Below, one piece after another: positions 1-48,397 of a stretch of 61,677 bases of DNA. Source of the stretch: Dicyema japonicum (lineage: Eukaryota > Dicyemida > Rhombozoa > Dicyemidae); NCBI GenBank assembly GCA_011109175.1, contig RDEW01000008.1:1066254-1127930 (forward strand), in the 5' to 3' direction. How positions within the stretch are numbered: the stretch's first letter is position 1; the number at the start of each line of letters is the position of its first letter. Below the pieces are notes generated by a model. It saw nothing but the letters and a program-made list of their open reading frames with translations. It was not told the DNA's origin and did no database searches. Position numbers and translations under genes: made by a program.

Positions 1-446
1 AAAAAAAGTTTGATTAACTAATGCATCAGAATCACCAAAATGTGGTATCTATAATATAAAAATACCGACAACATTAACATAAATATATTTTAGATTAATA
101 AAACTAGAATCTATTTTCATGTCAAATCCAACAAGTATATTTTCAAATAGAAAATTGATGTAGAACTCATTATTTCTTCTATTCACAAATTTGACTTCTG
201 TCTGTTTGAATTTAATATCTCGATTCTACTACTATGAAATTCACTTACGAATCTATTATGTTTAATCAATACGTAAATCTCTCCAGAAAATAATATAGAA
301 AATTTGTTATGTACGCGAATGATCCACATTGGAGCTTGATTTAATAACAGTTCATCAATAGTGATTTCAAGTAGAATTAAGCCAAAAAACAACACAATTA
401 CTACAAAATTAATAAATTCAAACAAACCTTCAATTATAAAGATCAT
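1..446 (-). CDS. Mucin-like surface protein family, copy 0 (5' part, runs off the window)
   Basis: Starts at ATG 446 and reads leftward past the window edge. Open reading gives a hydrophobic N-terminus (MIFIIEGLFEF then VVIVLFFGLILLEI) likely to be a signal peptide or anchor, then an ectodomain-like stretch with WIIRVHNKFSILFSGE and FVSEFHSSRIE. Two microintrons restore one frame: 20 nt at 176-195 and 24 nt at 49-72, the latter removing an in-frame TAG; both exist in paralogues. After splicing, the frame continues through NNEFYINF and IPHFGDSDALVNQT to position 1. It is the least damaged N-terminus of the four copies. The Thr-rich exon array expected downstream lies outside the window. No known family recognised; secretion is inferred from hydrophobicity only. 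Confidence 0.6.
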
Positions 447-5732: not shown

Positions 5733-6807
5733 GTCCTGTCGTGTAGAATTAAATCATCCATTTGCGAGCTCACGTCGTGGAAGGATAACCGTTTTTAAAA
5801 AAGGTAAGTAATCCGTTACCACACCTAATACGTTCTTTTCTGATATAGATGTATCCAGGAAAAAGTGGGGTTGTATTCTTTGTAAAAGGTTTTGACACCT
5901 AGATAAATAAAATATTTATATTCTGCTTCGATAATAGACATCGTAAATCCAAAATCTTTGTTTTTATTCCGTAGCATTGAGATGCATAATAACAAAGGGT
6001 TTCGGTCAATGGTATTGTTCAATATCTCCAGAAAGCAATAGAATCCACGTTAACAAACAAGAACTCTAGTTTCCAGTTAAGATATACCATCTAGACAAAC
6101 GAGAAGTGTGGATGAGGAAGAGAAAATAAATCTTTTTGGTGTTATTCGACACTGAGCGCCACCATAAAAAATGAACCACATGACGGCACGCTAACATTAT
6201 AGCAAAATGAAGATCTCTCATAAATTAGGTTAATTAATTCATAATTTGCAAATTAAACCTTTTTTAATAACTTAATTTATTTTTATAAAATAATTATTAG
6301 ATAATTAATTTTATTATAATAATTTTTATAATTAATTATTCATGAATAATTAATAATTTAACTAATGATCTTTATGTTTGGAGGTTTGTTTGAATTTAAT
6401 AATTTTGTAGAAATTGTGTTGTTTTTCGGTTTAATTCAACTTGAAATCACTACTGAACTGTTATTAAATCAAGTTCCAAAGTGGATCATTCGCGTACATA
6501 ACAAATTTTCTATATTTGTTTCTGGGGAAATTTACGTATTGATTAAACATAAGAGATTCGTAAGTGAATTTCATAGTAGTAGAATCGGTTATTAAATTCA
6601 AATAGACAGAAGTCAAATTTGTAAATCGAAGAAATAATCAGTTCCACATCAATTTTCAATTTGAAAATATATTTGTTGGATTTGTCATGAAAAAGGATTC
6701 TTAATTTTATTAATCTAAAACAGATTTATGTTAATGTTTTCGGTATCTTGATATTTTAGATACCAGATTTTGGTGATTTTGATGCATTAGTTAATCAAAC
6801 TTTTTTG
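5733..6807. repeat. Right arm of the inverted duplication
   Basis: Reverse complement of 1-1205. It carries the 5' part of mucin-family copy 1 and its upstream flank. The arms place copies 0 and 1 in divergent orientation about 6 kb apart. Confidence 0.75.
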
Positions 6808-7440
6808 ATTAAGAATTATTATTTTTGTCTCATTTTTAAATTGGACTATGTTAGAATTATTCTTTACATATTCAATTTACAACTACAAGTATCACAAACA
6901 TCTGAAATTACATCATTTTCTGGAATCGGTTATATTTATAATAATTTTAAGCTGATTTTTGTAATAAAAATCTGTTGTGTAATGAACCTATTGAACAAAA
7001 TAATCAATACTTTAAGTTGTTTTATTAATATTTATTTTCTTTTATTTTTTTATTATTTTTAGAAAACACAACGACTATTTCCACAACTACAACTGAAAGT
7101 ATATATATTTTAATTTCATATTTATAAATTCATGCATTCAAATAATATTTTTATTCATAGAAATGGCCACTACACTTACTCCCACAAGTACATCTGAAGG
7201 TACAAAATCTTCAATTATTGATTAATCAATTCATATAGTGAAATGTTAGATTCATCCACAGAATTGGCCACTACACCTACTCCCACAAATACAACTGAAG
7301 GTAAAATATCTTCAATTAATGATTAATCAATTCATATACTTAAATGTTAGATTCACCCACAGAATTGGCCACTACACATTCTCCCACAAATAAAACTGAA
7401 GGTAAAATATCTTCAAATTATGATTAATAAATTCAAATGG
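6365..7440 (+). pseudogene. Mucin-like surface protein family, copy 1 (exon array; C-terminal exon missing)
   Basis: ATG 6365 opens a hydrophobic leader (MIFMFGGLFEF...IVLFFGLIQLE) and the ectodomain start (WIIRVHNKFS). One missing base near 6585 closes the frame at RIGY. Downstream, the family's 20-nt (6612-6631) and 24-nt (6736-6759) microintrons are present. The Thr-rich array has four exons: 7063-7098 (36 nt), 7161-7199, 7262-7300 and 7363-7401 (39 nt each), separated by 62-nt GT..AG introns. All are phase 1, so each 39-nt exon inserts one 13-residue repeat such as ELATTPTPTNTTE. After the last exon the intron runs directly into 3' flanking sequence; the C-terminal exon seen in copy 3 is deleted. 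Confidence 0.6.
7063..7401 (+). repeat. Exon-intron tandem array: four mucin-repeat exons
   Basis: Unit of ~101 bp made of a 39-nt Thr/Pro-rich exon and a 62-nt intron with GTA...CAG borders. Exon sequence and intron sequence are both repeated, so whole exon-intron units were duplicated. Reading phase is preserved for any number of units. Confidence 0.75.
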
Positions 7441-9312: not shown

Positions 9313-11720
9313 TTCCATGAGAATTTAAAACAATTCACCTTTTTCTTATTATTTACTACAAAATTTAATTTATTTGTTGATTGACAATTACATATTTGCA
9401 GTAGTGTCTTTTTGACTATTCCTTTTTGAAGAGCGAGCTTAAAACACTCACTGTTTATGTAAAATACTTATATAAAAGTTCTTTGTCTATGTCCTCGTGA
9501 ACGAATTGAAAAACTGGATCGTAAATTTCCAAAATGGACAGATAGGAGGGGTATTTCACGTTCTACAAAATCATCACTAAGTTTTGCCTAACGGGCTCCT
9601 ATTACGATCTCTTCTGTCACTTATCTTGTTCAAATCCTTTCTAAACGATATTCCACCTATATATTTTTCGATATACTGAATGATATATTCATCAGGAGAC
9701 CTGTGTGGTCACATTAATGCTGATCGCTTAGATAATATATTTGACCTTTCGAAAAAGTCATACTTTTTTTCTCTCCACCTCCACAGTATACAAACGGTCT
9801 TGAGACGTAATGACATTTTCTATGATGTGAACTAGGCCAGACTCTTCATAGTGTACCACAAAATCATGTTCATTGCTTGACTAGCATAGAGTGTCATAGT
9901 AATTGGCATAACGCTATCACTTTTAATAACCCACCATCATCAACAACATACTTAGCGAACACAAAAGGTTTGAATGTGCCTAGGTGAGTGGGCCTTGTTT
10001 TCTCGGTCGTTGTTATGGCGTGCTTCCTAGCAGACACACTAGACCCAGCTATCAAGGTCTCATGCATTTGCATAAGAATTCGCTTCACCTTGTTGGACTA
10101 CTCCTAATTGGCTGCCAGCACATAGACATAATACTCCACGAATCATAAAATCATTTTATAGTACTTTTTGGCTCAAAATCAACAACACCTATGTAGTAGT
10201 TTAGAACCGTAATAGCATACTCATTTAATGCTAGGACAACTTCCGTGCATGTCTTACATAATAGCGTTGCTATTCTACTAATGTCTTTAGTTACTTATCG
10301 CTTTATCTCATGGACTCAATGGAAATCTGTAGATAAAAAATCCATTCAGATTCAAAATTGAAATATTGAGGATACTTTTTTATAAAAAATAAATAACCGG
10401 ACAAATAAAGAAATAATCAAAAATTTAAACTAAAAGCACGAGATATTAACTTCCGACCGATTTCAAGCTTAATATTATAAAAATTTAGGATATCCAGTCA
10501 AAAGCAGTAAATTTACTAGTAAAATATACGGCTTTAAAAGTTTTCCTAAGTGGGCAGCGATAATTTCCGCCACTTCCCTCTGGTCCACAATTTGCGTTCT
10601 TTGTCATCTTTTATAATTATCGGTTGATGGGGTCTTTCCCTTCATCTGTTTCACAGCCTCGTAGAATCTAGCGTTGTCCTTGAGAGATTCTATCTTCTTA
10701 ATCTGGTCCAGTGCTCGATTTCTGTTATGCTGGCGCATAGTTTTTCTTATTTTTGCTTTGATAGTTATTCTTTCTAGCCTCAATTTTGATTTTACGTTCG
10801 AATCGTCAGTATCTTGATATAGCATCCATATGGTCTTCTGTTTATTGGCAAGGTCCTTCACCGTGTACATGTCATTGTGCGATGGGATTTTCTCATTTTC
10901 TTTCATAGATGCAGATTGGCTTTTTTATGTATTGACTGTTTTACAAAATCCCAGGATTTTCCGGGCGGCAAATCTGTAGGCATGTATTCTAGTTCTGCAT
11001 CCAGATATTCTCTGAATGCTAGGGCCCCTTCTGATTGACTGATTAAGGATTCCAAGTTATAACGTCTATAGCTGGGTTCTGTGGTTTTAATTTGCTTTCA
11101 TTTCGTTCTTTGTAGTACCATAAATCTTTTTTGAGAAAGTCTAGCAATAACCATTTTCTGGTCGCTGTCGATAATCGATCCATTATAAGCTCGTGCATCA
11201 AGTATAATCCCTCGATCTTTTTGCCTGCATATGATATAGTCGATCTGGTTGTACATATTTATCACTCACCTTCGAGATTTGTTCTGTGTACCGACCACGT
11301 AGATTTATGTCTGGCTGGATGCATGAAGGTGTATTGCATAAAAATAGGTTGTTCGTTTGACAGAAGTTAGCTAGTAGAGTTCCCGGGGAATTTCTTTTCT
11401 CCCTTCCATGCTTTCCCATGAATATATCATCGGTCGTAACCTGGGTGCCATTTTTCGCATTTAGGTATCCTGCGATCATTACTAATGTCGAGAAAGCATA
11501 CTTGGAAAAGACGGCAGAAAGATTGGTGTAAAAGTCATCAATCTCCCCAGGGTTTTTATTAAGACATCCACTGTGAAGGCCGTAAACGTTTATTATAGTT
11601 ATATATTTTTTCGACGGGTTGAGGTCATCCAGTTTCAATTGCAACACCCCGATTCTATCATTCACACTGTAATATCGGCAGACTCTTGGATAAATCATTC
11701 CTGACGGCAAATCCTAGCCC
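9313..11720 (-). mobile_element. Internally deleted EEP-type LINE derivative, 5'-truncated copy
   Basis: Minus strand, 5' to 3': endonuclease/exonuclease/phosphatase part (VCRYYSVNDRIGVLQLKLDD, AGYLNAKNGT, then degraded SDH region), a basic linker (10906-10604; KAKIRKTMRQHNRNRALDQ), then a C-terminal segment with KRILMQMHETL and SVSARKHAI. The reverse transcriptase palm with its YADD box is absent: only about 300 nt of AT-rich sequence separate linker and C-terminal part. The 3' end is identical in position to that of the copy at 27463-30275, but flanks differ and this copy stops at about 11720 inside the endonuclease, as expected from 5'-truncated retrotransposition. Confidence 0.65.
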
Positions 11721-11744
11721 AGTGTGCTTGAAACTGAAACGAAT

Positions 11745-13090
11745 CATAATGAATTTTAGCAGTCATAACATACACGCAATACGTGAACAGCCACTTAATG
11801 TCAATGAGGTCGAAACCAGAGGAGCATACATCAAATATGTCCCCAACAAACTAAAGGAAGAGTAAACCGGAAACTTCTGGAGGCGACGTGCGGGCTGCCT
11901 TACGGTTATCACGTCCGGTGACACAGTATTGTCTTGTACCTCCGAGTTCCTGAATACCTTAATACTGAAACACTCAGATGCACCGATGACTATGAAAAGT
12001 TTTTGAATCCTGATGGAACTCCGGAGATTATCATTACCAAATCCGAAGTGCGCCACATAATAGCCTCCTTTGCGCTAGCAGCGGAGGAGGCTTGGAAGGG
12101 TTACGTCCTGGCCATATTAAAAACCTTACGTCTACTTACAACTCAGAAGCTGAACGCTGTTTGTCAAATTAATTTCCGACCTAATCAGAAAAATGGATAA
12201 CGGCGACATCAAAATTTGCAGAGAACTCTTCTCCGCAAGGCTCTTGCTGTCAAAAAACCCAATGGAGCAATCCGCCCATTGCGGTGGAAATATTATAAAC
12301 ACTTGCAGCAAAGGAAGCATCGACCTGGTGAGCCGACAACTTGGAGAGGAGTTCGTTCCTAAACAAATGGGTGTTAGTATCCAGAACGGATGTGAGGATG
12401 CGGTTCATGCAGCAAGGCGTTTCTTCACACAGAAAAATATTTCAAATGAATGCATTGGAATAAAGTTGACAAAACGAATGCATTCAATTTTCTCAGAAGA
12501 ATAAAATTATGGAAACGTGTTGGAAGAGGGCTCCAAAGCTTTTCCCTCTTGTCAATTATCTTATGGGGAAGATACGTCTCTGGTTTTTGAAAATGAAATT
12601 ATTAAATCAAAAACGGGTGTCCAACTAAGGAGATCCGCTCGGACCTCTTTATTTGCACTGACCATTGATGAGGTTGTGAGATCAATTGATGCTCAGCTAA
12701 ATCTCTTGTACTTCGATGATGCCACAATTGGAGGATCATTAAGGAAAAATACAATTCATTACGTAAAGCGTTACCCGCTTTAAAACACTTGGGCTTTGAC
12801 ATCAATGTTAACAAATCAGAGCTAATAGATGTCTCATATCCAAACACCGAGTTCTCTCTATCAAGGAGTCCTTAAACGAACTGCTTCCTGGGATCCTGAC
12901 AGTTCCAGTTGATAAATTATATTTCCTCGGATGCCCACTCAGCGAAGAAAAACTCAAGAATTATATACTTTCCAAAAATGAAGAATTAACACGCCTCACG
13001 AAAAGATTGTCATGTCTGGAATTTCACACATTTTTCTTCCTGATGAAAAACAACATCGGACTACCCAAGCTTTTATATCTCCGGACTCAA
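11745..13090 (+). pseudogene. RLE-type LINE reverse transcriptase (decayed)
   Basis: Plus-strand frames carry landmarks of one reverse transcriptase family: SGGGLEGLRPGHIKNL (about 12080-12125), MGVSIQNGCEDAVHAARRFF (12370-12430), TGVQ then GDPLGPL in a neighbouring frame (12615-12650), and LYFDDATIGG (12710-12735), the box C variant with FDD or LDD. Several frameshifts and stops. The same box appears at 32636-32700 as LWYLDDATIGG. The region downstream leads into a C-terminal RLE fragment, so this is probably the 5' part of that family. Confidence 0.65.
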
Positions 13091-13520
13091 AATCCCGAAG
13101 AGACAATGAAGAAAGTAATTGGGATACCATTGTCTGCTCCAAAATTTTGGAAGACCTTATAAAAAAGCAAATCAACTAGTTTGGTGTCAGCTTCAAATGG
13201 AGGGAGTTGACCATGGCATGAAGCAATACCTTACCCAAACCTCGGGACTTTTTTGGACGACGATTATATGAGGATTGGAATCGGACAACGTGTAGGACTA
13301 CAAGTTTGCCAGGAGCACCGATGCCAATGCGGGAAAACAGTCGTTGCGAAGGGATTGCACCCGCTGTCCAGCAGAAGAAGCGCCGGAAGTGGACCACGTC
13401 ACGCTGCTCTGAACGATGTGATCGTCAGAGCTCTGAAAGCTTCAGGCTTCCTAGCACAGCTTGAATCAGTTGGTCTCGATCGAGAAGATGGAAAAAGACT
13501 TGACGACACTGATCGCCACC
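13091..13520 (+). pseudogene. RLE-type LINE C-terminal fragment
   Basis: Contains MRIGIGQRVGLQVCQEHRCQ, CGKTVVAKGLHPLSSRRSAG (third ligand lost, Cys to Ser), then [17 protein letters not shown] and GLDREDGKRLDD where the catalytic PD is damaged (RPDG to RLDD). Joined at 13505 to a piece of the inverted-duplication flank. Confidence 0.65.
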
Positions 13521-13654
13521 ATAAAAGGTAGACCACATGACGCCAAGCTAACATTATTCCAAGATGGGGATCTTATCTTAAATTAGGTTAATTAATTCAT
13601 AATTTACATATTAAAAATTTTTTTTAATATAAGTTTTTTTAACAATTAAACAAA

Positions 13655-14275
13655 TGTCAGTTCAGGAAGCCTGCTGCGTGGATTGCAAACGAGTTCCCTC
13701 GGAGTATGGCTATTCCAATCTTTTGTCTTAGCCATAACCCTTCTCGTTGATCTCTTTTCTTTCTGGCAAGCAGTCCTCCGAGTTTTCGCAAGAACTCAGC
13801 CGTCATTGGACCAACGGTCCCGATGATTCGGTCGCAACAGGAGTAAATCGGTAGCAATCCCCGAGGCAAAATATTTCTTGATTTTTAGGTTCTCCGCAGT
13901 CGAAGCAGCTGCTCCAGGTGTCTGAACCGATTTGAAAATATTCGTGCTTGAGAACGTGTCTACACAAGTTGCGTCCCAGACCAAAGATCCTCCAGACGTG
14001 AAGGGGAAAAGGGTCATCCCGTCAGGTCTCTTCCCATCTCCTCGATTAAGACCCACTAGTTAAACTGTGCTGGGAAGCCTGTAGCCTTCAGAGCTCTGAC
14101 AATCACATCGTTCAAAGCAGCATGACGTGGTCCCCTTCCGGCGCTTCTTCTGCAGGACAGCGGGTGCAATCCTTTCACATCGACTGTTTTCCCGCATCGG
14201 CATCGGTGCTCCTGGCAAACGTCTAGTCCCAGCCGTTGTCTGATTCCAACCTTCAAAGAATCGTCGTCCAATTAG
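13655..14275 (-). pseudogene. RLE-type LINE C-terminal fragment, opposite strand
   Basis: Minus strand: [57 protein letters not shown], then after a frameshift [49 protein letters not shown] and a normal C-terminus AIHAAGFLN. The zinc ligands and PD...D residues are all present, making this one of the better preserved RLE domains. It faces the plus-strand fragment at 13091-13520. Confidence 0.7.
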
Positions 14276-14542
14276 GTCCCGTCCAAAAAGGTTAAGTTTT
14301 AATAACTTAATTTATTTTTATAAAATAATTATTAAATTAATTAATTTATTATAATAATTTTTTATAATTAATATTCATGAATAATTAATTATTTAACTCA
14401 AAGAATCGTCGTCCAATTACGTCCTGTCAAAAAGGTTAAGTTTTAATAACTTAATTTATTTTTATAAAGTAATTATTAAATTAATTAATTTTATTATAAT
14501 AATTTTTTATAATTAATTATTCATGAATAATTAATTATTTAA
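14253..14542. repeat. 145-bp tandem duplication upstream of mucin-family copy 2
   Basis: The block beginning CAAAGAATCGTCGTCC at about 14254 recurs at about 14399. Each unit joins the last bases of the RLE fragment to the AT-rich promoter flank and palindrome of the mucin gene, so the promoter-proximal region is doubled. Confidence 0.7.
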
Positions 14543-14545
14543 CTT

Positions 14546-16135
14546 ATGATCTTTATGTTTGGAAGTTTGTTTGAATTTAATAATTTTGTAGAAATTTTGT
14601 TGTTTTTCGGATTAATTCAACTTGAAATCACTATTGATGAATTGTTATTAAATTCAGTTCCAATGTGGATCATTCGCGTATATGAAAAATATTCTATATT
14701 ATTTTCTGGAGATATTTACTTATCGATTAACATTATGAATTAGTAAGTGAATATCAAAGTAGTAGAATCGAGTTATCAAATTCAACCAGACAGTCAAATT
14801 TGTGAAACGAAGAAATAATGAGTTTCTATCAAATTTCAATTTGAAAATACACTTGTTGAATTTGTCATGAAAAAGAATTCAAGTATTATTAATCTAAAAC
14901 AGATTTATGTTAATGTTGTCGGTATCTTGATATTATAGATACCGTATATTTGTGAGTCTTATGCATTAGTTGATCAAACTTTTTTGATTAGCAATTATTA
15001 TGATTGTCCTATTTTTAAATTGGACTATCTTGGAATTATTCTTTACATTTTCAATTTAAAACTACAAGTATCTCAAACATCTGGAATTACATCATTTTCT
15101 GAAACCTGTTGTATTTATTATAATTTTAAGTTATAATTGCAGTAATGACTTGTTATGTGATGAACCTAGTGAACTAATAATCGGTACTTTAAGTTGTTTT
15201 ATTAATATTTATTTTCTTTTATTTTTTATTATTTTTAGATAACACAACAACTACTTCTACGACTAAACCTGAAGGTAAATATCTTCAATTAATGATTAAT
15301 CAATTCATATACGTAAATTTAGATTCACCCACAGAATTGGCCACTACACCTTCTCCCACAAATACAACTGAAAGTAAAATTTCTTCAATTAATGATTAAT
15401 CAATCATATAATTAAATGTTAGATTCACCAACAGATTGACCACCACACTAACTCCCACAAGTACAACTGAAGGTACAATATCTTCAATTAATGATTAATC
15501 AATTCATATACTTAAATGTTAGATTCAACCACAGAACTGACCACCGAATCTACTCTCACAAACAACTGAAAGTACAATATCATCAATTAATGATTAATCA
15601 ATTCATATACTTAAATGTTAGATTCACTTACAAAACTGACCACCACATCTACTCTCACAATTACAACTGAAGGTACATTTTCTTCAATTAATGATTAATC
15701 AATCATATAATTAAATGTTAGATTCAACCACAGAATTGACCACCACATCTACTCCCACAAGTACAACTAAAGGTACAATATCTTCAATTAATGATTAATC
15801 AATCATATACTTAAATGTTAGATTCATTCACAGAATTGGCCGCTACACCTACTCCACAAGTACAAATGTAGGTAAAAAATTTTAATTAACATTTAATCAA
15901 TTCATACACTTAAATGTTAGATTCACCCACAGAATTGGCCACTACAACGACTCCACGACTATAATTGAAAGTAAAATGTTTTAATTCAACATTTAATCAA
16001 GTTTATTATTTTAATTTAAGATTCGAGCTTAACAAGTTCAACAATAAACTCTAATTGATAGTAAGCATGCATGCCCGAAAATTCAGTACTTCCTCCGTTT
16101 CTCGTCCATTGGAATTATCATTCCTCCTACTTGGA
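14546..16135 (+). pseudogene. Mucin-like surface protein family, copy 2 (longest exon array, decayed)
   Basis: ATG 14546; leader MIFMFGSLFEFNNF...LLFFGLIQLEITIDE and ectodomain start (PMWIIRVYEKYSILFSGD). A base deletion stops the frame at 14742. The 24-nt microintron lies at 14915-14938. A Cys-containing segment SNDLLCDEPSELIIGTLSC lies near 15145-15195. The array has eight exon units: 15239-15274, 15335-15373, 15435-15472 (38 nt), 15535-15571 (37 nt), then units starting near 15634, 15735, 15834 and 15933. Two exons have lost bases and one acceptor reads ACAA instead of ACAG (15630-15633). The C-terminal exon near 16021-16135 has a base deletion relative to copy 3. Probably a pseudogene, or frame breaks are sequence errors. 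Confidence 0.55.
15239..15971 (+). repeat. Exon-intron tandem array: eight mucin-repeat exons
   Basis: Eight successive ~100-bp units with Thr/Pro-rich exons (LATTPSPTNTTE-like) and introns carrying the shared string AATTAATGATTAATCA. Unit number differs between family members (four, eight and three), showing gain or loss of whole exons. Confidence 0.75.
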
Positions 16136-16336
16136 TGGATTTTAATTAACATACTAATTTAAATTACACTAACAGATATATTTGTTAAATTATTTTCTGA
16201 GACTAATTTATTAATTATTTAACCCAGGACACATAAAGTAAGTAGTCGGTGATTACCTGTTGTCATATTAGAAATGTAATCTATTTAATGTCTCCTGAAT
16301 TTGTACTTCATGGTAACAAAGAAATGAATTGAGAAG

Positions 16337-16895
16337 AGGACTCAAAATCCCAAAAGACACAAAGAAGCAAAGTAATTGGGATTCCATTGTCTGCTCCAAA
16401 ATTTTAGAAGATTTTAAAAAAAAAGTAAATCAACTTATTTGTCGTCAGCTTTAAGTGGAGGGAGTAGAGCATGGCTTGGTGCAATACCTTATCCAATCCT
16501 CGGGACTTTTTTAGACGACGATTATTTGATGATTGGAATCGGACAACGGCTAAGACTAGACGTTTGCCAAAAGCACTGATGCCGATGTGGGAAAACAGTC
16601 GATGCGAAAGGATTGCACCCGCTGTTTAGCAGAAGAAGCGCCGTAAGTGGACCACGTCACGCTGCTCTGAACGATGTGATCGTCATAGCTCTGAAGGCTA
16701 CAGGCTTCCCAGCACACCTTGAACCAGTGGGTCTCGATCGAGGAGATGGAAAGAAACCCTTTCACATCCGGAAGATCTTAGGTCTGGAACGCAACTTGTG
16801 TTGACACATTCTCAAGCACGAATCTTTTCAAATCAGTTCAAGACACCTGGAGCAGCTGCTTTGACTGCGGAAAACCTAAAAATGACTTTCTCGAC
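16337..16895 (+). pseudogene. RLE-type LINE fragment at left edge of duplication A
   Basis: Contains LDDDYLMIGIGQRLRLDVCQ-like text, [29 protein letters not shown] and GLDRGDGKK in shifting frames. It stops at AENLK, where the 3' end of the inverted Jockey-like LINE begins; the same junction exists in copy B, so the LINE insertion predates the duplication. Confidence 0.65.
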
Positions 16896-19541
16896 TTTTT
16901 CATGAGAACATTATCAATCCTTTTGACGAGAGAAAAACTACGCTTCACACCCGTATAGTAGCTCTGGTAGAATAATCTTTATGAAGATAAACAAGAAGGT
17001 CTTCAAGCTTACGAACAACTTGCTCGTACAGAGAAGCGCTTGTACCGCCTTCTTCCTTCTTCGTCTGATATTTTCCATTAAGGAACCTTCTCCTTCAATA
17101 ACTACTTTGAGGTAACAGAGTAAGTTTACTTTTGGAATATCAAGTGAGTAGGGCTGTGTACGGTGTCTCGTAGACGGCTAACTCTCAAGTAGCTGGACTT
17201 CTCCGTAGATAGTCTTATCCCTCTCTTGGAGCACCAATTTTGCACTTGGTCGATGAATGACTTGATTCTTCTTTCCGATAGAGTTTACTTCCAAGACATA
17301 TCTGTAATTAGAATATCGTCTGCGTATATCAATAGTTTGGTGTTCGCATCCAGAGGAATTGGAAAGTCTGATAGAAACACGTTGAACAGAAGCGGGCTCA
17401 AGGTAGAGCCTGTGGAACGCCCCTCTTCAGAAAGATATCTTTTGACATACTCGTCCCAACACGTATTTGGGAAGTCCGTCCTGTTAATAAGTTTTTTATC
17501 CATATGAAAAGTTTCCTTTGGATAGTGACAGCCGCTAGCTTTGATAGCAGTGCATCATGCCACACGCTATCGAATGCCTTGGTCAGGTCCAAACATACTA
17601 TGTTAACTTGCTTCTTGAATTCAGACCTCTCAATACCACCGAATGTATGTGGTGGATGCAATCCGTGCAGGATTTCCCAGGTCTGAAGCCACATTGTTCT
17701 GCGAAAGGAAACCACTTCTTATATGTGCTCGTTTAGCCTCTTGAAGATAATTCGCTCAACAATCTTGGAAATAGAGCAAATGAGGCTGATCGGCCTATAG
17801 TTGAGAGGGTCCCTCCCCGACTTTCCAGGTTTCAGGATCATTCTAACTATGGAGGTTTTTCAGTTTGGGGACATACACATAATCTATGCTCGCGTTGACT
17901 AAATTCTTCAGCACGAGCAGCAGATCATCTGGGCCTTCCTTGAACATTCTCTTGCTAATATGGTCATGTCCACGGGCGTTAGCTTTGTACACTCTATTGG
18001 CAATCACGATGTCCTCTGTCGTTATCTTCATAACAGTATCTTTGAAATCGTCCGGGAATAAGTAATAAGTTCTTTTGAAGCTCTCAACTCTTCCCTCGGA
18101 TCAGCTCCGTCGGGTTGACTTCCTGGATACGGTCTAGTTGCTTCTTAAAGATTTCCAGTACTTCTTCCATAGAATATGATCTACCTTCCAGTTTGTTCAG
18201 AGAGATTTTCACATCATTCCACTTCTGGCCTGTTATTTTTTTGTAGATCTTCCAGATCGAAGGGTTTTGCTTGTTTCGACCCTCCAACATTGTTCTATTG
18301 CCAGTCTTGTTCCCTCTTCAATAGCTTTTTTGATTATTTTTAGTTGGCCAGTCAATGTAATCGGTCCATCCAGTCGACACATCATCTGCGTTTGTTCCTC
18401 AGTCGGTTTCTTTCTTTAATCATAGATAGTGTAGAAGGGAGAAATTAATGCTCTTCTTATAATTGGTATCGGAGAGTCTCCTCCTGGCGTAAAGTGATAA
18501 GTATCTCTTCCAGAAAGTTGTCTATGTTGTCAATATCATTTCGGGAATAAGGTCCCTCCTTCCATTTTTTGAGATTTCAAACATGTATCTTCATAGTGTT
18601 CCCAATTTAATCTTGATTGGTCTGTTCCCTTAGCCTGTGAACACTGACTCGTAGTGTCCGGAGCCAGGTTCAGTGACATCTCTTGAGGGATGCGGTCGCT
18701 CCCGATGTCCCACATGATCATCGGTCTCTCCACATAAGTGTAGAGCAGTGATGACACCAGGAACACTTCAAGCATGTCTCCACCGTAGTGCGAGAAGTGA
18801 TTCGGCTTCTCCGATGTCAAAATCTCGAAGCCAGTCTAGTAACTCAATTTTCTTAGCCTGATTCCATCCTCGTTGGTTCCAAGGCATCCATGTTTAATGT
18901 TCTTGGCGTTTAGATCTCCCACTAGGACAGACATATCGTTTCCCGCGAAGAATTCTTCAATTTCTGTGGAGCACTTTCTGAGGACCTTTGAATACAATCC
19001 TCCAACGTGTATCCAACGGCCACAGCATCTCACCTAGACGAAAACAAATTCACAATGTGTATTCATAATTACTTTTGGCTCACGTATCTGTAGAACATCA
19101 CTGTAGAAAATGTGGTTCCAGTACTAGCCTCTGCATATTCGACCCATGGTATTTCTATAGAATTACATCCCCGTAGCATTGTAGTGTTGGTCTTTTTCAC
19201 CTTAGTCTCGTTGACCACCAGGATGTCAATCTTGGTGGCCGACAGAAGTAGTGCCAGGTCATGACGCCTATTCCTCAGTGATCGGGCGTTCACCAGCTAT
19301 CTTCAGGTTTCTTCTCAATTTTCTTTTTGGTGAACTGGCTCTCCATGGCCAGGTCCACCATTCTTTTTAAATCCACTCCAAGTTCAGTTCTTCAGTCTAT
19401 ATTATTTCTTCCAGTTCTTTTGCAAATCTCCTGGTATCTTAGAAGAGGAGCTGGTTCATTCTTGTTAGTCCTTGGGACAATTATTCTTTTTTGGGTAGGA
19501 GTTTCACTTTGTTATAACTTATATCTGTTCTAATTGTCTGT
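16896..19541 (-). mobile_element. Jockey-like LINE, duplication copy A (ORF2 with frameshifts, ORF1 lost)
   Basis: Minus strand. Endonuclease pieces: MNARSLRNRRHDLALLL, ETKVKK and VGDLNAKN (19293-18836). A linker follows (18290-17843). Reverse transcriptase: NYRPISLI, DLTKAFDSVWHDALL (box A), GVPQ then LSPLLFNVFLSDFP (box B), LLIYADDILI (box C), 17870-17285. These are the signatures of Jockey/I-type LINEs. The upstream ORF1 present in copy B (36393-37117) is missing; the LINE ends at about 19541 against a hAT remnant. Confidence 0.8.
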
Positions 19542-19548
19542 TCTAAAT

Positions 19549-19633
19549 AAAAAAGTTTTAAGGGTCGATTAAATAATATGGGGGTCAAAAAAAGTCAAGG
19601 GGTCGACGAGCAAAAAAAGGTTGAGAACCCCTG
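19549..19633. mobile_element. hAT transposon end replacing LINE ORF1
   Basis: Ends at 19633 with AAAGGTTGAGAACCCCTG, a hAT terminal repeat, followed by CTCTAAAT (19634-19641). TTCTAAAT also precedes the element (19541-19548), giving an 8-bp target-site-like pair. Copy B has TTCTAAAT only once at this point (37132-37140 region), i.e. the empty site. The left terminus is absent, so a deletion probably ran from inside the hAT element into the LINE. Confidence 0.6.
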
Positions 19634-19679
19634 CTCTAAATCATCCCACCCACAGAGAAGTTGCGTTGGATCCCAGAAG

Positions 19680-19880
19680 AGGCACAAGGAGAGAATGAGA
19701 ATTCGGTGTAAGATAATAAGCCTGGAGGTAATGGAGTCTCGCTGGAGACAATTCTGGCACTTCTTGAAGATGGAATTGGTATTCTTGCTTAACAGAGATA
19801 TAGAAGACTACTATGTTTGTTTCCGACGACCCCCCGTTCTTACTGAGAAAAATGACGTCACTTCTAAACACTAACTTTCC
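19680..19880 (+). pseudogene. LINE C-terminal fragment (copy A)
   Basis: Reads RIRCKIISLEVMESRWRQFW and HFLKMELVF...DIEDYYVCFRR, matching the RWRLFGHxLR...DYY....RGRPR tail found after the reverse transcriptase thumb in many LINEs. Sister at 37195-37400; more distant relatives at 50090-50320, 55565-55720 and 59780-60248. Confidence 0.55.
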
Positions 19881-20146
19881 AGAAAAAATAGATACCCCTT
19901 GGATCTTGGCTACTTCCTATCCAGAAACTAAACGATTCCCAATTCATGTGTATACGAGTTCGAAAAGTTATTGTCTCATCTAGATCAATGGAGATGACTT
20001 CACCGGGAGGACCATACAGTAGCTTGTTTTTTTAGCCAATAATTTAAGCCAAATACTCTACTTCAGTGTGTTTTAACAATTCTTGAAAGTAATTCAAATC
20101 TTGATGTTTGATATTTTTCGGTATTAAGAATTTGAAGATGACTAAT

Positions 20147-20219
20147 GCCTCCGTGGCGCAACGGTTAGCGCGTGTGGCTGTTAACTGCGAGGTTGCCGGT
20201 TCGAATCCGGCCGGAGGCG
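20147..20219 (+). tRNA. tRNA-Asn (anticodon GTT)
   Basis: 73-nt cloverleaf without intron. Acceptor GCCTCCG pairs with CGGAGGC, D stem GCGC with GCGC, T arm GCCGG-TTCGAAT-CCGGC is perfect, discriminator G. Anticodon loop CTGTTAA gives GTT. The anticodon stem (TGTGG with CTGCG) is weak, with three G-U pairs. TTTTT follows within 6 nt as a Pol III terminator. CCA is not encoded, as expected in a eukaryote. Confidence 0.95.
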
Positions 20220-20221
20220 AA

Positions 20222-20900
20222 TTTTTATCTAAACAAAGTTACTTTTTTTGCAAATTGCCAAATTATAAAAAAATATACCGTATTCCTTATACTAAAATAT
20301 TTATAAACATCTATTTTTTCCTGTTTTCTTTCTAGGCAAAAATTAATTTTTTAAAAAAAACATATTCTTAGAAATTATACTTCATTGCTAAACTAAGTAA
20401 AATCATTCGGGTCACTCAACTTAGATTCAATAAAATAATATTTTTTTATTTCAGGATGGCTTTAAGCGACACTCTGTGTTTACAGATATATTCACAATTT
20501 CACTAGTAAAGTTATACATAAACAATTTTTTTTTAAATCAAAATAAATTTTTCTACTTGCTGCTCTCAGAATCCAAGACAAATTAAGTTAATGAAAGCCA
20601 TATTAACCATGTCAAGATAAATATTCATCCAATGGGCCCCCAACTACTTCACTCATCGTCCTCTAATGGATTTCTTTGTGGTCAAATAGTGACGATGATC
20701 TATTCATTTATTTCATTTGCACTTTCATCTTCATAAAAGACGCAGTTACTTCTTCCTCTTTTTTGACTTATAGCTTTCCAAAATAATAATCCCTTCATTG
20801 CCGAGAAGGGTCTAAGTGTTTGGCTGTACTTCATAAACAAGATATAGTCAGACGTTCGAGATGTACAGTAGGACATGTGTGGTTGATAACTCCTTGAAAC
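20222..20900. other. AT-rich flank of tRNA with short exon-like piece
   Basis: Both duplication copies keep TTTATTTCAG followed by ATGGCTTTAAGCGACACTC (20455-20475), an acceptor-like or trans-splice-like site before a short ATG reading frame (MALSDTLCLQ). The frame closes after about 15 codons. No gene could be assembled. Confidence 0.3.
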
Positions 20901-21215
20901 ATCGCCATAAATTTATCATCTGCATAAACTTGAACAGTATGTATGGATCATTGAAGTATGGAATATCGGATAAAAACAAATTTAATAATAAAGTGAACAG
21001 TGGATGTCTTTGAGGAACATTGTTCGGTAAGAAGCGAGATATTGATAACGTACTCTCCGGCGTCGCACGGAAAAATTGTTATCTTAGTATTATATCGGAT
21101 TCGAATGTCTTTTGAATATCACTACAAATCCGAGATGTGTCACAGTAAAGCGACCCGGTTTGTAGTCGTATTGGAAGGAAGATGACAAAAGATCTGGGAA
21201 AATAATTTTTAAAAC
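20900..21215 (-). pseudogene. Reverse transcriptase remnant (copy A)
   Basis: Minus-strand fragments include VQVYADDKF-like box C text near 20905-20950 and, upstream, a degraded box A. The copy B relative (38400-38728) is more open. Heavily frameshifted. Confidence 0.5.
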
Positions 21216-21479
21216 AAGCTTTGTGCATGTGAGAAAGACCGGGCTAGAGAATTAAGAGTAATAGGATTTATTTTTTTTAATTTAAAAATATTATTATTAA
21301 TATTTAATCGATCTTAAATATAAAGTAAATGAACGTTTATATTTCTTTATGTGTTTTGGTGGTGCACTGAGATCTCCATTTTAATTAGTTAAAATGGTCG
21401 AAAAGTGCAATATTATTCTACACTTAACGTTGCTACTATCTTAGTAGTTAGTATAGTGTACTACATTCATTTTTAAACT

Positions 21480-22020
21480 TGTATATTGCCGATGATACTC
21501 GATATCCAGTAGAATCCATGAATCCACCATTTGTGATTTATACACTGAAATTTCTCACATATGCCCAAGAATATTCATATTCTCCTTTATTGTTCAACCT
21601 TTCTCTGGTTGTTTTTAGCTGCTTTATTAGGTCGTTGTTTAGGGTGTATCCCAAAAATATTTCGTCGGGATGTGTTCTTTAATTACCATCTTCGAAAGTG
21701 ATTCAAGCACACGTGACATTTTGAATTGAAATCGAATTTCCCAGCAATTGTATGATAACGTGTCAGATCACTGTGTAGATATGACATCCTAACGACAGCA
21801 GTTATTTCTTCAATTTGGAAATGTTCGCCAAATCGACACATTAAATTCGAATCCAGAGATCACTATATTCCGTCCATCTGTATGAGAAATTCGACTTTCT
21901 GTGTAGACACAAGCAGAGACACTTCTGACAGAGGTTAGGTTTTTCGATGAACACAGGATGGAAATAGCATGAGCGATAGGGGGAACCAGGTACATATAAC
22001 TAGAACGGTTATCATTATCT
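21480..22020 (-). CDS. Unrecognised coding-like segment (copy A)
   Basis: Minus-strand frames give RSVSACVYTESRISHTDGRN, IVISGFEFNV, then after a gap IFLGYTLNNDLIKQLKTTRE and GEYEYSWAYVRNFSV. Composition is protein-like rather than random, and copy B keeps the first part continuously open (39557-39162). Frame changes between segments may reflect microintrons or decay. It does not resemble the LINE domains nearby, but I cannot identify a family. Confidence 0.35.
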
Positions 22021-22550
22021 AAGGGGTTGACTGGATGGCTATTCCCCTCAGGATGGCTAGCTAGATTCGCTCAAAATAACCAGCGTCGCTGACGGGGATC
22101 TCCTGTTCATGCGAAATCAGATTTCCTAGACGACTCAAGAATTTTAGCATCACAGGAGCAATGGAACTTGACATTCAAAAGTGTGCAAGACTAACAAAAA
22201 ATATGACCGTATACTCTCAGTTTCATATCAGCCGATTGAATTATTTATTTAACTTTTCAAGGATAAGTTGAGGTACTAACCTTTTTTGCACTAAAACCAC
22301 ACATCTGGTTTTAGATAGACTTTTGTAATATTGGAAGAACTGTTTCTGCAAAAATTGAAAGTAATGTATCTCTCTTGCTTCGTCTACTCTCCATATCTTC
22401 GATTCTTAGAATATTGTGTGGAAAGTAGAAGTCAAGAAAATTATTTTTTTTATTTTCAAGTAAGTACTACTTCACATGAAAATACTAACCATCCAACAAG
22501 ATTTCCAACATTGAACTCGACAGGCCAGCCCAGCATGAAAAATAATTTTT

Positions 22551-22985
22551 TCAAAAACCAATCCTGTCTTCTGAGTTAAATCTGAGTTGCCCAAGAAGAC
22601 TTTTAACTATACCGTGAAAGTTCAATTGTGAGGATTTCAAAAGACAGTTACATGTCTGGTTGGGGGAGATGACTTTTAAAGGTATCAAATCGAAATTCGT
22701 GGAAATTGGTAATGTTAACAAAGGTTCCTTGGTTTTCTGAGGCATTGTTAAAACCCATGAACGGGTTTTCCCTCAATCGCCTGACGTGATCTGAAAATTG
22801 TAGTCATGATAGATCCGCTACTTTCCGCAAAACTATGTAAAATCTGTAAACAACTTCGAAGACAAAGATTTGGATATCGAATCGATCCTGATGCCTTTTT
22901 AGGGATATCATCTAAACATGGCATGCTACCAATTGACTCTTCAAGTCTGATCATAAAATACTCACAAATATAGTAAGGCAGTCGA
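22551..22985 (-). CDS. Unrecognised coding-like segment with possible microintron (copy A)
   Basis: Minus strand. Two open stretches: IRLEESIGSMPCLDDIPKKA, PNLCLRSCLQILHSF (22954-22748) and PKTKEPLLTLPISTNFDLIP, NFHGIVKSLLGQLRF (22745-22551). A canonical donor GTGAGT lies just upstream with an acceptor 19 nt later (20 nt in copy B, 40540-40565), suggesting a microintron. The same stretches occur in copy B. No family recognised. Confidence 0.3.
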
Positions 22986-23381
22986 GTTCTGCATTCGATA
23001 CGTGATTATTACTGAAAAAAATCTCAGAAAGTGATATATGTCAACTGTAAAAATGAGAAAGAACAGTTCTCCGATTAACAAGGTACTCATCAAAGGGGGT
23101 TCATTCATAGTCGTTTGTGAAGAAATGACAAAAAATCGTTGGGTATTCGACTTTTGGAAATTTCTAGTGCCTGGACGCCATATTAAGAGGATCTCGTTTT
23201 TCCATACTCCCCTTGAGGGGTTTCAAGTGGCGGATATGATGCATGGAAAATGCATCTCATTCTGACCGCTGGAACTGGGATTACTTTGTTAGTTGAGTAC
23301 TCTCTTTCTCTTTAACCAGTGATCCTGAGTCAATAAATATAGAATGTCTTGTTTCAATATTTTTAGAAATATTATGATGCT

Positions 23382-23686
23382 TTGTTAGAAATCAATGAGG
23401 CAAATAATTCCATATGTGGGGAATCTTGGAGTCGTTTAGCTACAATAGCGCTAGAGATAAAAGACAACGATCCTTGTTTCCAAATAATTCCAGAGTATTA
23501 CCCCCATCTACTTAGAGTGCGCATCAAATTTGATGGAAATAAATGGCATTGTTGTACAATTGGAGAGAGCGAAGAGCTCAATTCCCCAGATTCAACAAAA
23601 ATTAATTTACCACCTGTCCATTCAAGTGAAGGAAACCGGTGGTGACTTTTTCTCTCAGTTTTGTATAAATAGGCGTTGAGACCCAC
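23382..23686. other. Coding-like region open on both strands (copy A)
   Basis: Plus strand reads EINEANNSICGESWSRLATI...HLLRVRIKFDGNKWHCC; minus strand reads GGKLIFVESGELSS...QQCHLFPSNLMRTLS. In copy B one plus-strand Trp codon becomes TGA, while the same change is silent on the minus strand, which favours the minus strand. Strand and function remain unresolved. Confidence 0.3.
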
Positions 23687-24179
23687 GTGATGACCGCAGC
23701 GGAGGCGCGAGAGTTTACCCGAATTTTAAGAGGAAGGCAATTATTCTGTCGGGGTGCGATTTTTGAATTAATTTTTTTTTAAATTGTTATATATTTATAA
23801 TTAAATTTCAAATAATTAAATAATGTAGCATGCAGCTTTCTGGTGTGACCTGTTAAAAGTAAGAAAATATGTAGACAACTATTTATCTTTTGTTTTCATT
23901 TAAAATATCTACTTAAAACCATGTGTTTTGCAAATGTGGTGTGAATTTTTTCTAACAAAGCGATTTAGCTATCTCGCTTATTGGAACACACACAACGCAC
24001 GCATTCGGAATCACTAGGAAAAGTTATTGAATGTTTTTTAAATTTAAAGCAAAACTATGGCAAAGTGATAAACATAACGTCATTAATAAATACCTGAAGA
24101 CCCACAAATTATTCATGTCTTTTGTATTCACATAAAGATGGAGAAATTATCGCCAATGCTGGTTTTTTATCTTTTTTTA

Positions 24180-24340
24180 ATTTATAAGACACTATTGGAT
24201 GACAACGCTATGAGGATTGGGGTTTTCCGTCCGTTTCAAAAATAGATATTGCACGATCCATCGCTGTAGATGCGGAGGAATGGTCGAGGATAAAGTTTAT
24301 CGAGGTTTCCCAATGGACGGTGACATAATTTATATTTATT
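24180..24340 (+). pseudogene. Divergent RLE-type LINE fragment (copy A)
   Basis: Across frames reads DDNAMRIGV, then RCRCGGMVEDKVYRGFPMDGD, matching the (L)DD..RIG..xRLG..C..HRCRCG..VD segment of the RLE C-terminus. Relative at 41765-41905. Short and frameshifted. Confidence 0.5.
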
Positions 24341-24639
24341 TTGACGATGACTGCCATTTTATGAGGTTATTTTTAAAATTATTAAAGATTTTTAATTTTC
24401 AAAGAATTTGAATTATATCTAAATATTGTGCATTATGATTTTTTTTAAAAAACAAAACTGCCCAAATATAATATCTATTCATTGCATTTACATAGGCACA
24501 GTCAATAAAGATATTTATTACGGCGTGGTCTCCCTTATGACTTGCAGGCATTGAGTACACAATCGGAGTTACCACACATGATCGAAGCCCAATGTTCTGG
24601 AAGAGCCAATTTATCATTCTGGGCTCTCCCTTTTGCAGT

Positions 24640-30275: not shown

Positions 30276-30289
30276 GTTAAATTAGGTTA

Positions 30290-30425: not shown

Positions 30426-31555
30426 ATGATCTTTATGATTGGAGGTTTGTTTGAATTTAATAAGTTTGTAGAAATTGTGTTGTTTTTCGGTTTAATTAAA
30501 CTTGAAATCACTATTGATAAAGTGTCAAATAGTCAAATTCCAATGTGGATCATTAGTGTAAATGACGAATTTTCTATTTTATTTTCTGGAGAGATTAACG
30601 TGAGGATTACAGATAATGGAATGGTAAATGAATATGATAGTAGTAGGATCGAGTTGTCAATTTCAACGAGACAGTTGTCGGTTATGAGAATCTAGGAAAT
30701 AATGAATTCTATATCAATTTACAAGTTGGAATTACACTTGTTAGTTTTAAATTGAAAATGGATGATAATCTTAATTATTTAAATCTAATTTATGTTATGG
30801 TTGTCGGTATCTTGACATTATAGATACGGGGAATTGGTAGTTCTTCTATTAATATTAATGAAATATTTTTGATTAGAAATTATTATTATTGTCATAATTT
30901 AAAGATAGAATTTCCTCCATTTATTTTACACATTCTACTTTAAACTACAAGTATCTCGAACACCTGGAATTACATCATTTTCTGAAACCTGTTGTATTTA
31001 TTATAATTTTAAGTTGATAATTGCAGTAATGATCTGTTAAATAATGAACCTATTGAACCAATAATCGGTCCTTTAAGTTGTTTTATTAATATTTATCATC
31101 TTTTATTTTTTTATTTATTTTTAGGACACACTACAGCTACTTCCACTACTACAAGTGAAGGTAAATATTTTAATTTCATGTTTATAAATTAATGCAATTA
31201 AATAATATTCTTATTCATAAAATTGATAACTACAGCTACTCCCACAAATACAGCTGAAGGTAAAATATCTTCAATTTATGATTAATCAATTCATATAATT
31301 AAATGTTAGATTCACCCACAGAATTTGCCACTACAACTACTTCCACTACTACAATTGAAGGTAAAATATTTTAATTCCCTATTTAATCAATTTATATCAT
31401 TTTTATTTTAAGATCCGAGCATAACAAGTTCAACAATTAACACTAATTTGATAGTAAGCATGCATGCCCGAAAATTCAGTACTTCATCCGTTTCTCGTCC
31501 AGTGGAAGTAACATTCTTCCTACTTGGATGGATTTTAGTTAACATACTAATTTAA
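30426..31555 (+). CDS. Mucin-like surface protein family, copy 3 (with C-terminal hydrophobic tail)
   Basis: Leader MIFMIGGLFEFNKFVEIVLF, ectodomain start PMWIISVNDEFSILFSGE to STRQ. The 24-nt microintron (30800-30823) removes an in-frame TAG and joins open frames, as in all paralogues. A conserved segment SNDLLNNEPIEPIIGPLSC lies near 31025-31080. The array has three exons: 31125-31160, 31221-31259 and 31322-31360 (Thr-rich, phase 1). The acceptor of the middle exon is AA instead of AG. A 52-nt intron leads to the last exon, 31413-31555: SITSSTINTN, then FSTSSVSRPVEV and a hydrophobic end FFLLGWILVNILI, suggesting a GPI signal or membrane anchor. One junction near 30680 is unresolved. Function inferred: O-glycosylated surface protein. 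Confidence 0.55.
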
Positions 31556-47737: not shown

Positions 47738-48397
47738 TCATTTCCAATCTCCCTTATCGTAATCCCACATGGAGGCAATCCCTGTAATGGGGTTCATATT
47801 CTGCTTAAGCATTCTCTTAATCTGTTCCTCCTTAGCCTTTACAGTCAAATAGTTTGGCACTTCCGGCATCACTGATATCAGAACACCAAATACTTAACAT
47901 CTTTATCCCAGCGAACATCAGCATTGACACACCAATTATGAAGAAATAGTGGGCCAGGATCTTTCTCCAAATCCCCGTCTTAGCTTGCGATTCGCACAAC
48001 GTGTGACGGAAGGAGACTCGATAAACTAAAAATAAATGGGATAGGAACGTGATTTTTTCTCCTCCAGGGTCAGCGTCTTCCAGTCGTTCACTTCCTTCTC
48101 CCTGAGAGCCATAACTTGGGGAGTGTTGGACATGAATCGGATTGGGGGAAGGACAGTCAATTCTGTCAAGATAACGGTAATTGTGTTCGTATGGATGTCC
48201 CACGATGTCCCGATCCCCGACTTCTGGGTAGAGCTTCTCCTTGAGGTCAGGGCTGTCAAAAATGATTGCCTGCTTGGCAGCAATTGGTCGGACGACACCT
48301 GAAGAACCAGTGACATAGCGGGGGATGGTTTGATTCTTTATGTTAGAAAGGATTTTACAACTAGTTTATAAGGTAGTCGAGAAAATAGTTGGGTCAT
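47738..48397 (-). CDS. COX4: Cytochrome c oxidase subunit 4 (nuclear gene, three microintrons)
   Basis: Exons 48397-48362, 48335-48049, 48025-47894, 47871-47738; introns 26, 23 and 22 nt, all GT..AG. The protein (~195 residues) starts with a mitochondrial presequence (MTQLFSRLPYKL), then VGDRDIVGHPYEHNYRYLDR, IRFMSNTPQVMALREKE, NDWKTLTLEEKKSLYRVSF, a single membrane span HYFFIIGVSMLMFAGIK, and the family C-terminus MNPITGIASMWDYDKGDW. These match subunit IV of the inner-membrane respiratory complex IV. Exon 2 needs one base removed (or two added) at the G5 run 48144-48148 (coding CCCCC) to keep frame; everything around it is conserved. Stop TGA. Divergent from the gene starting at 48500. Confidence 0.93.

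Follow-up and report, generated by a model that had tools for sequence, protein, structure and literature searches.

Features of the window

The window, by which we mean the whole stretch of 61,677 nucleotides analysed here from Dicyema japonicum (contig RDEW01000008.1), a dicyemid and thus a tiny parasite of octopus kidneys, contains copies 0 to 3 of a gene family. In copies 1, 2 and 3, ectodomain exons are followed by tandem rows of short, Thr-rich exons (micro-exons). The features of the window, in the order of their coordinates, are as follows.

446..1, minus strand: copy 0, a family member of which the front part was recognised, running leftward out of the window (tblastn and spliced model)
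6365..6383, plus strand: copy 1, coding exon 1 (19 nt, spliced model) with the ATG at 6365, where a signal-peptide-like N-terminus begins
6384..6410, plus strand: copy 1, 27-nt GT-AG intron within the signal-peptide region, with a 27-nt counterpart in the relative C1:1533k
6411..6587, plus strand: copy 1, exon 2, remainder of the putative signal peptide and start of the ectodomain, including WIIRVHNKFS (spliced model)
6588..6609, plus strand: copy 1, 22-nt intron (spliced model)
6610..6729, plus strand: copy 1, ectodomain exon; the best spliced model needs a frame break here
6760..6928, plus strand: copy 1, last long ectodomain exon, lying inside what the earlier note took for intron 1 (spliced model)
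7063-7098, plus strand: copy 1, Thr-rich micro-exon 1, 36 nt, phase 1, ENTTTISTTTTE
7161-7199, plus strand: copy 1, micro-exon 2, 39 nt, phase 1, EMATTLTPTSTSE
7262-7300, plus strand: copy 1, micro-exon 3, 39 nt, phase 1, ELATTPTPTNTTE
7363-7401, plus strand: copy 1, micro-exon 4, 39 nt, phase 1, ELATTHSPTNKTE
14546..15100, plus strand: copy 2, signal-peptide region plus ectodomain, for which the best model requires two frame breaks
15239..15970, plus strand: copy 2, array of 8 units: 4 whose length is no multiple of three, 1 that has lost the usual acceptor and 3 that are sound
30426..31036, plus strand: copy 3, signal-peptide region plus ectodomain, for which the best model likewise requires two frame breaks
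31125..31360, plus strand: copy 3, three-unit array in which unit 2 has lost the usual acceptor
31412..31555, plus strand: copy 3, tail exon encoding 47 residues, the last of them VTFFLLGWILVNILI, followed by a stop; GPI-like
47738..48397 (approximate limits), minus strand: COX4-like gene outside the family (Pfam PF02936 at its cut-off), with a 23-nt intron read by eye

GC content in the window varies between 26 and 43% among bins, with a mean of about 36%. Two blocks, 10284-27462 and 28611-45285, are duplicates of each other, offset by 16.9-18.3 kb and identical at about 94-95% of positions. Both tRNA-Asn genes (20146 and 37644) lie within them; the array copies 2 and 3, between the blocks, are only about 81% alike. 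LINE fragments also occur in this region, and the reverse-transcriptase open reading frames found near the copies were taken as ordinary. Roughly 80-160 bases upstream of the start, an AT-rich leader, are conserved among the copies, and a 144-bp tandem duplication at 14253-14544, directly upstream of copy 2, overlaps this leader in part.

Very short spliceosomal introns are a dicyemid trait. According to published accounts, the mean intron length in Dicyema is 26.2 nt over 16 introns from 7 genes (PMC2222250), the median intron of a Dicyema sp. is 27 nt as against longer introns (median 57 nt) in orthonectids (PMC6543705), and the genome of D. japonicum measures 67.5 Mb, with 36.7% GC, 49% repeats, 5,012 genes and a mean intron of 38 nt (PMC6736024). 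Such introns are present here in COX4 (23 nt) and in actin (22-27 nt). For example, when actin loci are read against human actin, both introns of L066 are 27 nt long (its model contains one frame break), and L067, like L068, has introns of 27 and 22 nt. The actin-family search returned 76 matches, which are exon pieces, with near-identical neighbouring sets on contigs C94 and C137; a search for COX1 gave no match.

Exon plan and probable decay of the window copies

The earlier note had placed a first intron of about 500 nt in copy 1. This candidate was rejected: in the spliced aligner the window copies share the exon plan of C1:1533k, and the supposed intron is therefore ectodomain cut by introns of 20-30 nt. 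The ectodomain exons of copy 1 continue up to 7062 and are separated by introns of 22-30 nt. Copy 0 is 80% identical to the head of copy 1 over positions 446-249 (tblastn), and its spliced model, which covers query residues 1-115 only, has no break over that front part; its tail was not found.

The best ectodomain models of copies 1, 2 and 3 contain 1, 2 and 2 frame breaks, respectively. Models without breaks score lower (267 vs 315 for copy 1, 266 vs 312 for copy 2 and 307 vs 376 for copy 3, a cost of 46-69 points), where the maximum for shuffled sequence in 20 trials of the same aligner was 85. These break-free models are forced, in that copy 1 requires an extra 40-nt intron and copy 3 reaches query residue 149 only. 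In addition, the tail of copy 2 is interrupted by a stop and tblastn detected no tail for copy 1. Together, the frame breaks, the interrupted tail and the missing tail match suggest that the window copies are decaying; since break-free models can be forced, this is likely but short of proof. Copies 1, 2 and 3 (the C170 cluster) are thus probably broken, decaying family members in repeat-rich DNA, and the suggestion that they are working coat genes is not supported for them, given ectodomains that are probably broken. The hydrophobic N-terminus and the hydrophobic C-terminal tail of copy 3 described by the earlier note are both there, the tail being open over its 47 residues.

The micro-exon arrays of the window

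At base level, an AG lies 5' and a GT lies 3' of each of the four Thr/Pro-rich micro-exons of copy 1, and the three introns between them measure 62, 62 and 62 nt. Thr/Pro-rich phase-1 exons alternating with 62-nt introns, as the earlier note had described them, are therefore seen in copy 1, the first exon being 36 nt long and the others 39 nt, and the unit numbers that it gave for the three copies (4, 8 and 3) are correct. Tandem Repeats Finder locates three tandem repeats in the window (7081-7435, 15269-15977 and 31129-31401), with unit lengths of roughly 99-101 bp, and also detects a higher-order period of 299 bp in the array of copy 2, as multi-unit duplication would leave. Nine of the 15 units of the three arrays are sound, i.e., divisible by three in length and provided with both usual splice sites (4/4 in copy 1, 3/8 in copy 2 and 2/3 in copy 3). 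In the units at 15634 and 31221 the usual acceptor alone is lost and an in-frame alternative acceptor is present. From unit 2 or 3 onward there is a second in-frame acceptor 12 nt upstream, which would give a 51-nt exon. The proposal that any number of units of about 101 bp keeps the reading frame stands for symmetric exons; six of the 15 window units are damaged.

The window arrays exceed chance expectation: 20 of the 22 matches to Thr-rich candidate exons on both strands of the window fall inside the three arrays, and phase-1 Thr-rich exons of 30-51 nt occur in relatives of the same gene on other contigs.

Relatives elsewhere in the genome

DNA and six-frame searches of the genome (64.67 Mb in 191 contigs) detected relatives on other contigs. 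With the window copies counted in, there were 17 tail and 25 ectodomain matches at E<=1, and 14 and 10, respectively, at E<=1e-3. The relative C1:1533k is intact from ATG to stop, with exons of 19, 181, 131, 171, 54 and 131 nt encoding 228 residues, introns of 27, 20, 23, 23 and 49 nt in phases 1, 2, 1, 1 and 1, and no internal stops. Among 17 loci that were modelled with and without frame breaks by the spliced aligner, C1:1533k and C17:68k are break-free at no cost, as is copy 0 over its front part. Break-free models cost 3 points at C1:993k, 6 at C34:732k, 9 at C2:1324k and 6 at C101:146k, and judged by these models the four loci may be intact in the ectodomain, that of C101:146k aligning weakly (score 104). 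For the remaining ten of the 17 loci, 7 to 85 points are lost without breaks, and C148, as well as C76 when modelled without breaks, aligns no better than shuffled sequence. The tails of C1:1533k, C17:68k, C34:732k and C2:1324k are break-free and that of C1:993k has a break. A 2606-aa open frame at C137 was rejected as a candidate, reflecting a run of N in the locus.

In family members parsed outside the C170 cluster the stalk consists of one to three micro-exons. For instance, the array of C1:993k, in which one unit is duplicated, comprises exons of 36, 36 and 39 nt, that of C2:1324k has exons of 45 and 51 nt, and that of C101:132k has exons of 33 and 36 nt. At C101:146k four Thr-rich blocks with a period of about 105 bp can be seen by eye, of which the chaining rule described below placed only part. 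Because unit length and unit sequence vary by locus, the arrays probably grew separately. The longest arrays of the window family (4 and 8 units) belong to copies that are probably broken. Between 1 and 8 units are seen in the window family and up to 30 or more in a second family. The notion of a gene family is accordingly borne out, with members on many contigs, products that look secreted or anchored, and a repeat number that varies between copies by whole frame-neutral units, and so is the expectation of further intact copies, C1:1533k being intact and several others near-intact.

Predicted protein architecture

The C1:1533k protein has a hydrophobic, signal-like start, within which the first 27-nt intron falls, followed by a predicted extracellular domain, which has a pair of cysteines late in its length, and by a short run of Thr; the protein closes with SLVLGWILVNILI and nothing after it. 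In all three tails compared (C1:1533k, copy 3 and the C101 type), the top-scoring hydropathy window of 15 residues reaches the very end of the protein. A hydrophobic extreme C-terminus without trailing residues is typical of GPI signals, and the C-terminal end of the window family reads as a putative GPI-anchor signal. As for the variable surface coat proposed by the earlier note, the predicted anatomy (a hydrophobic N-terminus and a hydrophobic extreme C-terminus) speaks for a surface protein, and what lacks support is the part of functional genes for the window copies.

The ectodomain is plausibly related to the luminal domain of LAMP proteins, to judge from faint profile similarity. No Pfam family matched the C1:1533k protein at E<=5, the query being a hand-spliced version one residue longer than the 228-residue model. 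Of 10 exon pieces taken from relatives, six match PF01299 (LAMP luminal domain), with E between 2e-4 and 0.01 and in the same region of the profile. All six come from two-domain relatives, PF01299 being the top family in five and second to Oxysterol_BP in one, and none of the 10 pieces exceeds the Pfam cut-off (best 21.6 vs 27.2 bits). A genome-wide PF01299 search gave five matches (best E 0.033, best score 19.3 bits). Profile comparison with LAMP over 131 columns returned a probability of 8% for the two-domain relatives, for which comparison alone 30 shuffled controls were run and one scored 9.6%, and of 16% when the intact member was added. The relatives' profile found no LAMP in the PDB, and the predicted structure of one relative exon (mean pLDDT 49.5) is too poor to use. 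A YNYFEL-like motif that gave the first hint of LAMP was discarded, as it is intronic in the models, and the LAMP case rests on other residues.

What the dicyemid proteins would share with LAMP / CD68 (PF01299; LAMP1 and LAMP3 PDB chains) is the weak profile match of two-domain relatives to one luminal-domain region, paired cysteines near the domain end and, in relatives, two domains with a transmembrane-like stretch and a tail. The window family differs in its mucin part after the domain and its hydrophobic GPI-like end, with PF01299 below cut-off. By hydropathy, a transmembrane-like stretch followed by a short tail is present in relatives A and B and absent from the window family, where the hydrophobic stretch is terminal.

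The two-domain LAMP-like membrane proteins comprise L061-L065, L051, L052 and L054. L061-L063 have two ectodomains, a transmembrane-like stretch and a short tail, and models from domain 2 to the tail are break-free in L061, L062, L063 and L052 and contain breaks in L064, L065, L054 and L051. Relatives with one such ectodomain are L050, L055, L056, L057, L059 and L060 (on C176, C2, C132 and C1), several of which have Thr/Asn-rich repeats in a single open frame before a transmembrane-like stretch and tail. These single-frame repeats represent the same stalk idea without an exon array.

A second family with longer arrays

DNA searches with array units located a second family on C101, C118, C109, C159, C105, C152 and C153. 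The complete model, at C152:11176-13244, has 36 exons (43, 21, 30, thirty of 24, 57, 93 and 86 nt) encoding 349 residues, in a parse of the array that admitted only exon lengths divisible by three and with the first and last exons placed by hand. All 35 introns are GT-AG and phase 1, and there are no internal stops. Coding sequence makes up 1050 of 2069 bp, and 32 of the 36 exons are 21-30 nt long (771 of the 1050 coding nt). The predicted protein would be a transmembrane mucin and is 42% Ser plus Thr, with the hydrophobic start MIVEIVVLFFTIKSA and the transmembrane-like TIIVIILVIYFL followed by a basic tail. A relative of its membrane-near part lies at C153:967-1095 (E 4.8e-7). C152 is the only complete array gene that we claim, as a gene model; the arrays of C118 and C101 yielded no clean model at their 5' ends, and the 3' side of C118 is N.

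The chaining rule, which accepts open phase-1 exons with lengths divisible by three and introns of 20-30 nt, finds runs of 30 micro-exons at C152, 28 at C101 and 21 at C118, against 1-4 in 150 random 2-kb window stretches and 2-3 on the opposite strands of the arrays. It should be noted that both the chains and the C152 model admit only lengths divisible by three, so that the unbiased count rests on C101 and C118, which were also parsed by intron motif with no demand on frame or on exon length modulo three. In this parse C101 has 27 introns of 25 or 26 nt, and all 26 internal exons are 24, 27 or 30 nt long with no stop in phase 1. C118 has 37 introns (38 with a looser parser) and 36 internal exons, of which 35 are divisible by three (24 or 27 nt) and none of these 35 contains a stop, the remaining one being a fused 77-nt piece where an acceptor has been lost. 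The array introns of C118, C101 and C152 are nearly all 25 or 26 nt, so that retention of one would shift the frame. The C101 array, with its 27-nt exons (ASTNPSTIE) and 25-nt introns, adjoins a C101 relative across a single N, and because of this N the array and the neighbouring ectodomain piece may belong to different genes.

In C101, whose exons diverge by 17-21%, no splice site is lost among the 27 units or introns while intron interiors diverge by about 12 and 16%; in C118 one splice site is missing and intron interiors diverge by 12 and 6%. This retention has to be read with the caveat that the units share ancestry and that the parser takes GT-AG only. Five 102-bp units of C118 are 100% identical to the query. 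Freedom from stops compared with a neutral simulation gives P 0.12 for C118 and 0.06 for C101, which is weak alone. The ratio pN/pS is 0.71-0.76 for the 27-nt exons and 1.7-2.1 for the 24-nt exons, and this mixture suggests that amino-acid identity is loosely kept, as expected of a mucin.

Preferred reading and alternatives

Taken together, these data quite probably reflect a multigene family of predicted surface glycoproteins in which each stalk repeat corresponds to one symmetric phase-1 micro-exon, with a second family using the same device. Proteins of the window family would carry a signal peptide, one LAMP-like extracellular domain, a Thr/Ser/Pro-rich stalk and a GPI-signal-like C-terminus; the stalk would presumably be O-glycosylated, and membrane anchoring and a coat function would go with this layout. 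Each stalk repeat would be spliced in from one short symmetric phase-1 exon. As the exons begin and end in phase 1, whole units can be duplicated, lost or skipped without a frameshift, and stalk length is hence free to change. Unequal crossing-over between units would be the likely motor of changes in repeat number, and skipping of a decayed exon would be tolerable. The second family (C152, C101, C118 and others) would build its stalks in the same way, from exons of 24-27 nt separated by introns of 25-26 nt, its kinship with the window family not being assumed.

For the window copies themselves it is rather likely that the arrays are a minisatellite in dead gene copies, with a functionless repeat number produced by neutral slippage or crossing-over. 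The frame breaks that the best ectodomain model of each of the three copies contains, the six damaged units out of 15, and the LINE fragments and large duplication of the region all favour such an origin, while intact and near-intact relatives retain the micro-exon architecture and C152, C101 and C118 hold frame over 26-36 exons. This explanation covers the window copies only and is compatible with a surface glycoprotein family elsewhere in the genome. Spread of the copies by a mobile element that captured the gene, the conserved AT-rich leader being part of the element, seems improbable: LINE fragments adjoin the copies and some 80-160 upstream bases are conserved among them, but a conserved promoter accounts for the leader equally well, and the kept introns argue against retroposition. 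A related question is the extent of the unit exon. Several later units carry both a TTAG acceptor 12 nt upstream and the usual one, and both resulting exon lengths are divisible by three; the true exon could then be 51 nt, or both acceptors could be used to give 13- or 17-residue repeats. We consider this unlikely, as a CATAG acceptor sits at the 39-nt position in unit 2 of copy 1 and in the units of distant relatives.

For the second family, there is a very slight chance that the arrays of 24/27-nt exons are satellite DNA in which cutting at GT-AG leaves open pieces by coincidence. The high homogeneity of the C118 units, the weak result of the stop-free simulation and the resistance of the 5' parts of C118 and C101 to clean modelling would all fit a satellite. 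However, C152 gives one continuous 36-exon model from an ATG and signal-like start to a transmembrane-like stretch, tail and stop, C101 exons diverge by 17-21% yet no splice site is lost, and C153 carries a relative of the membrane-near part of C152.

Comparison with known systems

The closest likeness is to the SmPoMuc genes of Schistosoma mansoni. According to PMC2576457, these have 15 exons, among which exon 2, of 27 bp, lies within tandem repeats of about 1 kb present in up to 20 copies per gene. The common ground is a parasite mucin multigene family with one short exon per repeat in a tandem exon-intron unit of variable copy number. The dicyemid arrays are predicted from sequence to have the same arrangement of one exon per protein repeat. 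They differ in scale (units of 49-113 bp rather than about 1 kb, array introns of 25-77 nt, and up to 30 exons in a row rather than at most about 20 copies) and in being attached to different protein bodies. Exons of the SmPoMuc length of 27 nt occur in C118 and C101 and none occurs in the window, and no dicyemid unit approaches 1 kb. Likewise, a hammerhead ribozyme, a trait of SmPoMuc introns, was absent from the window, where Rfam at the gathering cut-off gave only two tRNAs.

Exons of micro-exon genes (MEGs) mostly differ from one another, without a single repeated unit. In the schistosome MEGs, as described in PMC4350168 and PMC4015677, most of the coding sequence lies in small symmetric exons and most members have a signal peptide; the genes are apparently restricted to platyhelminths, and alternative splicing has been shown (PMC4350168, PMC4015677). 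The shared traits are very small symmetric exons as the coding majority, proteins that are secreted or membrane-bound (as predicted here), and a parasitic spiralian as bearer, whereas alternative splicing is demonstrated there and the dicyemid exons are copies of one unit with predicted splicing. A coding majority in very small symmetric exons is found in the C152 model and is lacking in C1:1533k.

Davis et al. in 1988 reportedly described 81-base tandemly repeated exons in Schistosoma that encode protein repeats, and the principle of tandem exons is shared with the dicyemid arrays while exon length differs. Collagen and the PEVK region of titin also have exon arrays in which repeats arise from duplicated in-phase exons, with longer exons and introns and without mucin stalks. 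Spider silk too has repeats from duplicated in-phase exons yet no mucin stalks, and its exons and introns are longer. Exon-intron repeats in spider silk are mentioned in PMC2576457.

The tandem-exon device is thus already known from schistosomes, and the dicyemid arrays are an extreme variant of it in scale and run length. An earlier description of dicyemid micro-exons or mucins was not found in the open-licence literature, so the word 'undescribed' in the earlier note is apt for dicyemids in that literature and too strong for the principle, which SmPoMuc had already illustrated.

Implications for dicyemid biology

The window copies are probably relics, yet they point to micro-exon arrays that are widespread in this genome and reach an extreme form. 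A dicyemid spliceosome would handle introns of 25 nt, so that exons and introns can be of about the same size and 35 introns fit in a 2-kb gene. We would tentatively suggest, as a possibility that is on balance doubtful, that dicyemids independently evolved a schistosome-like system for varying mucin length, in which rows of interchangeable 24-39-nt exons arose several times, in at least two families, and may yield many stalk isoforms by skipping. If true, this would be a compact way to vary the coat facing the octopus host in a species with about 5,000 genes. The arrays would also take the design of mucins from tandem exons beyond schistosomes and into a further phylum of parasitic spiralians, maybe by an independent route. 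As a gene model, C152 offers an extreme natural test of splicing, with 30 successive 24-nt exons between introns of 25-26 nt. The arrays would make it possible to ask by what means a spliceosome keeps count of units that are nearly identical, whether pressure from hosts has repeatedly led to arrays of frame-neutral exons, and how the surface of a dicyemid is covered.
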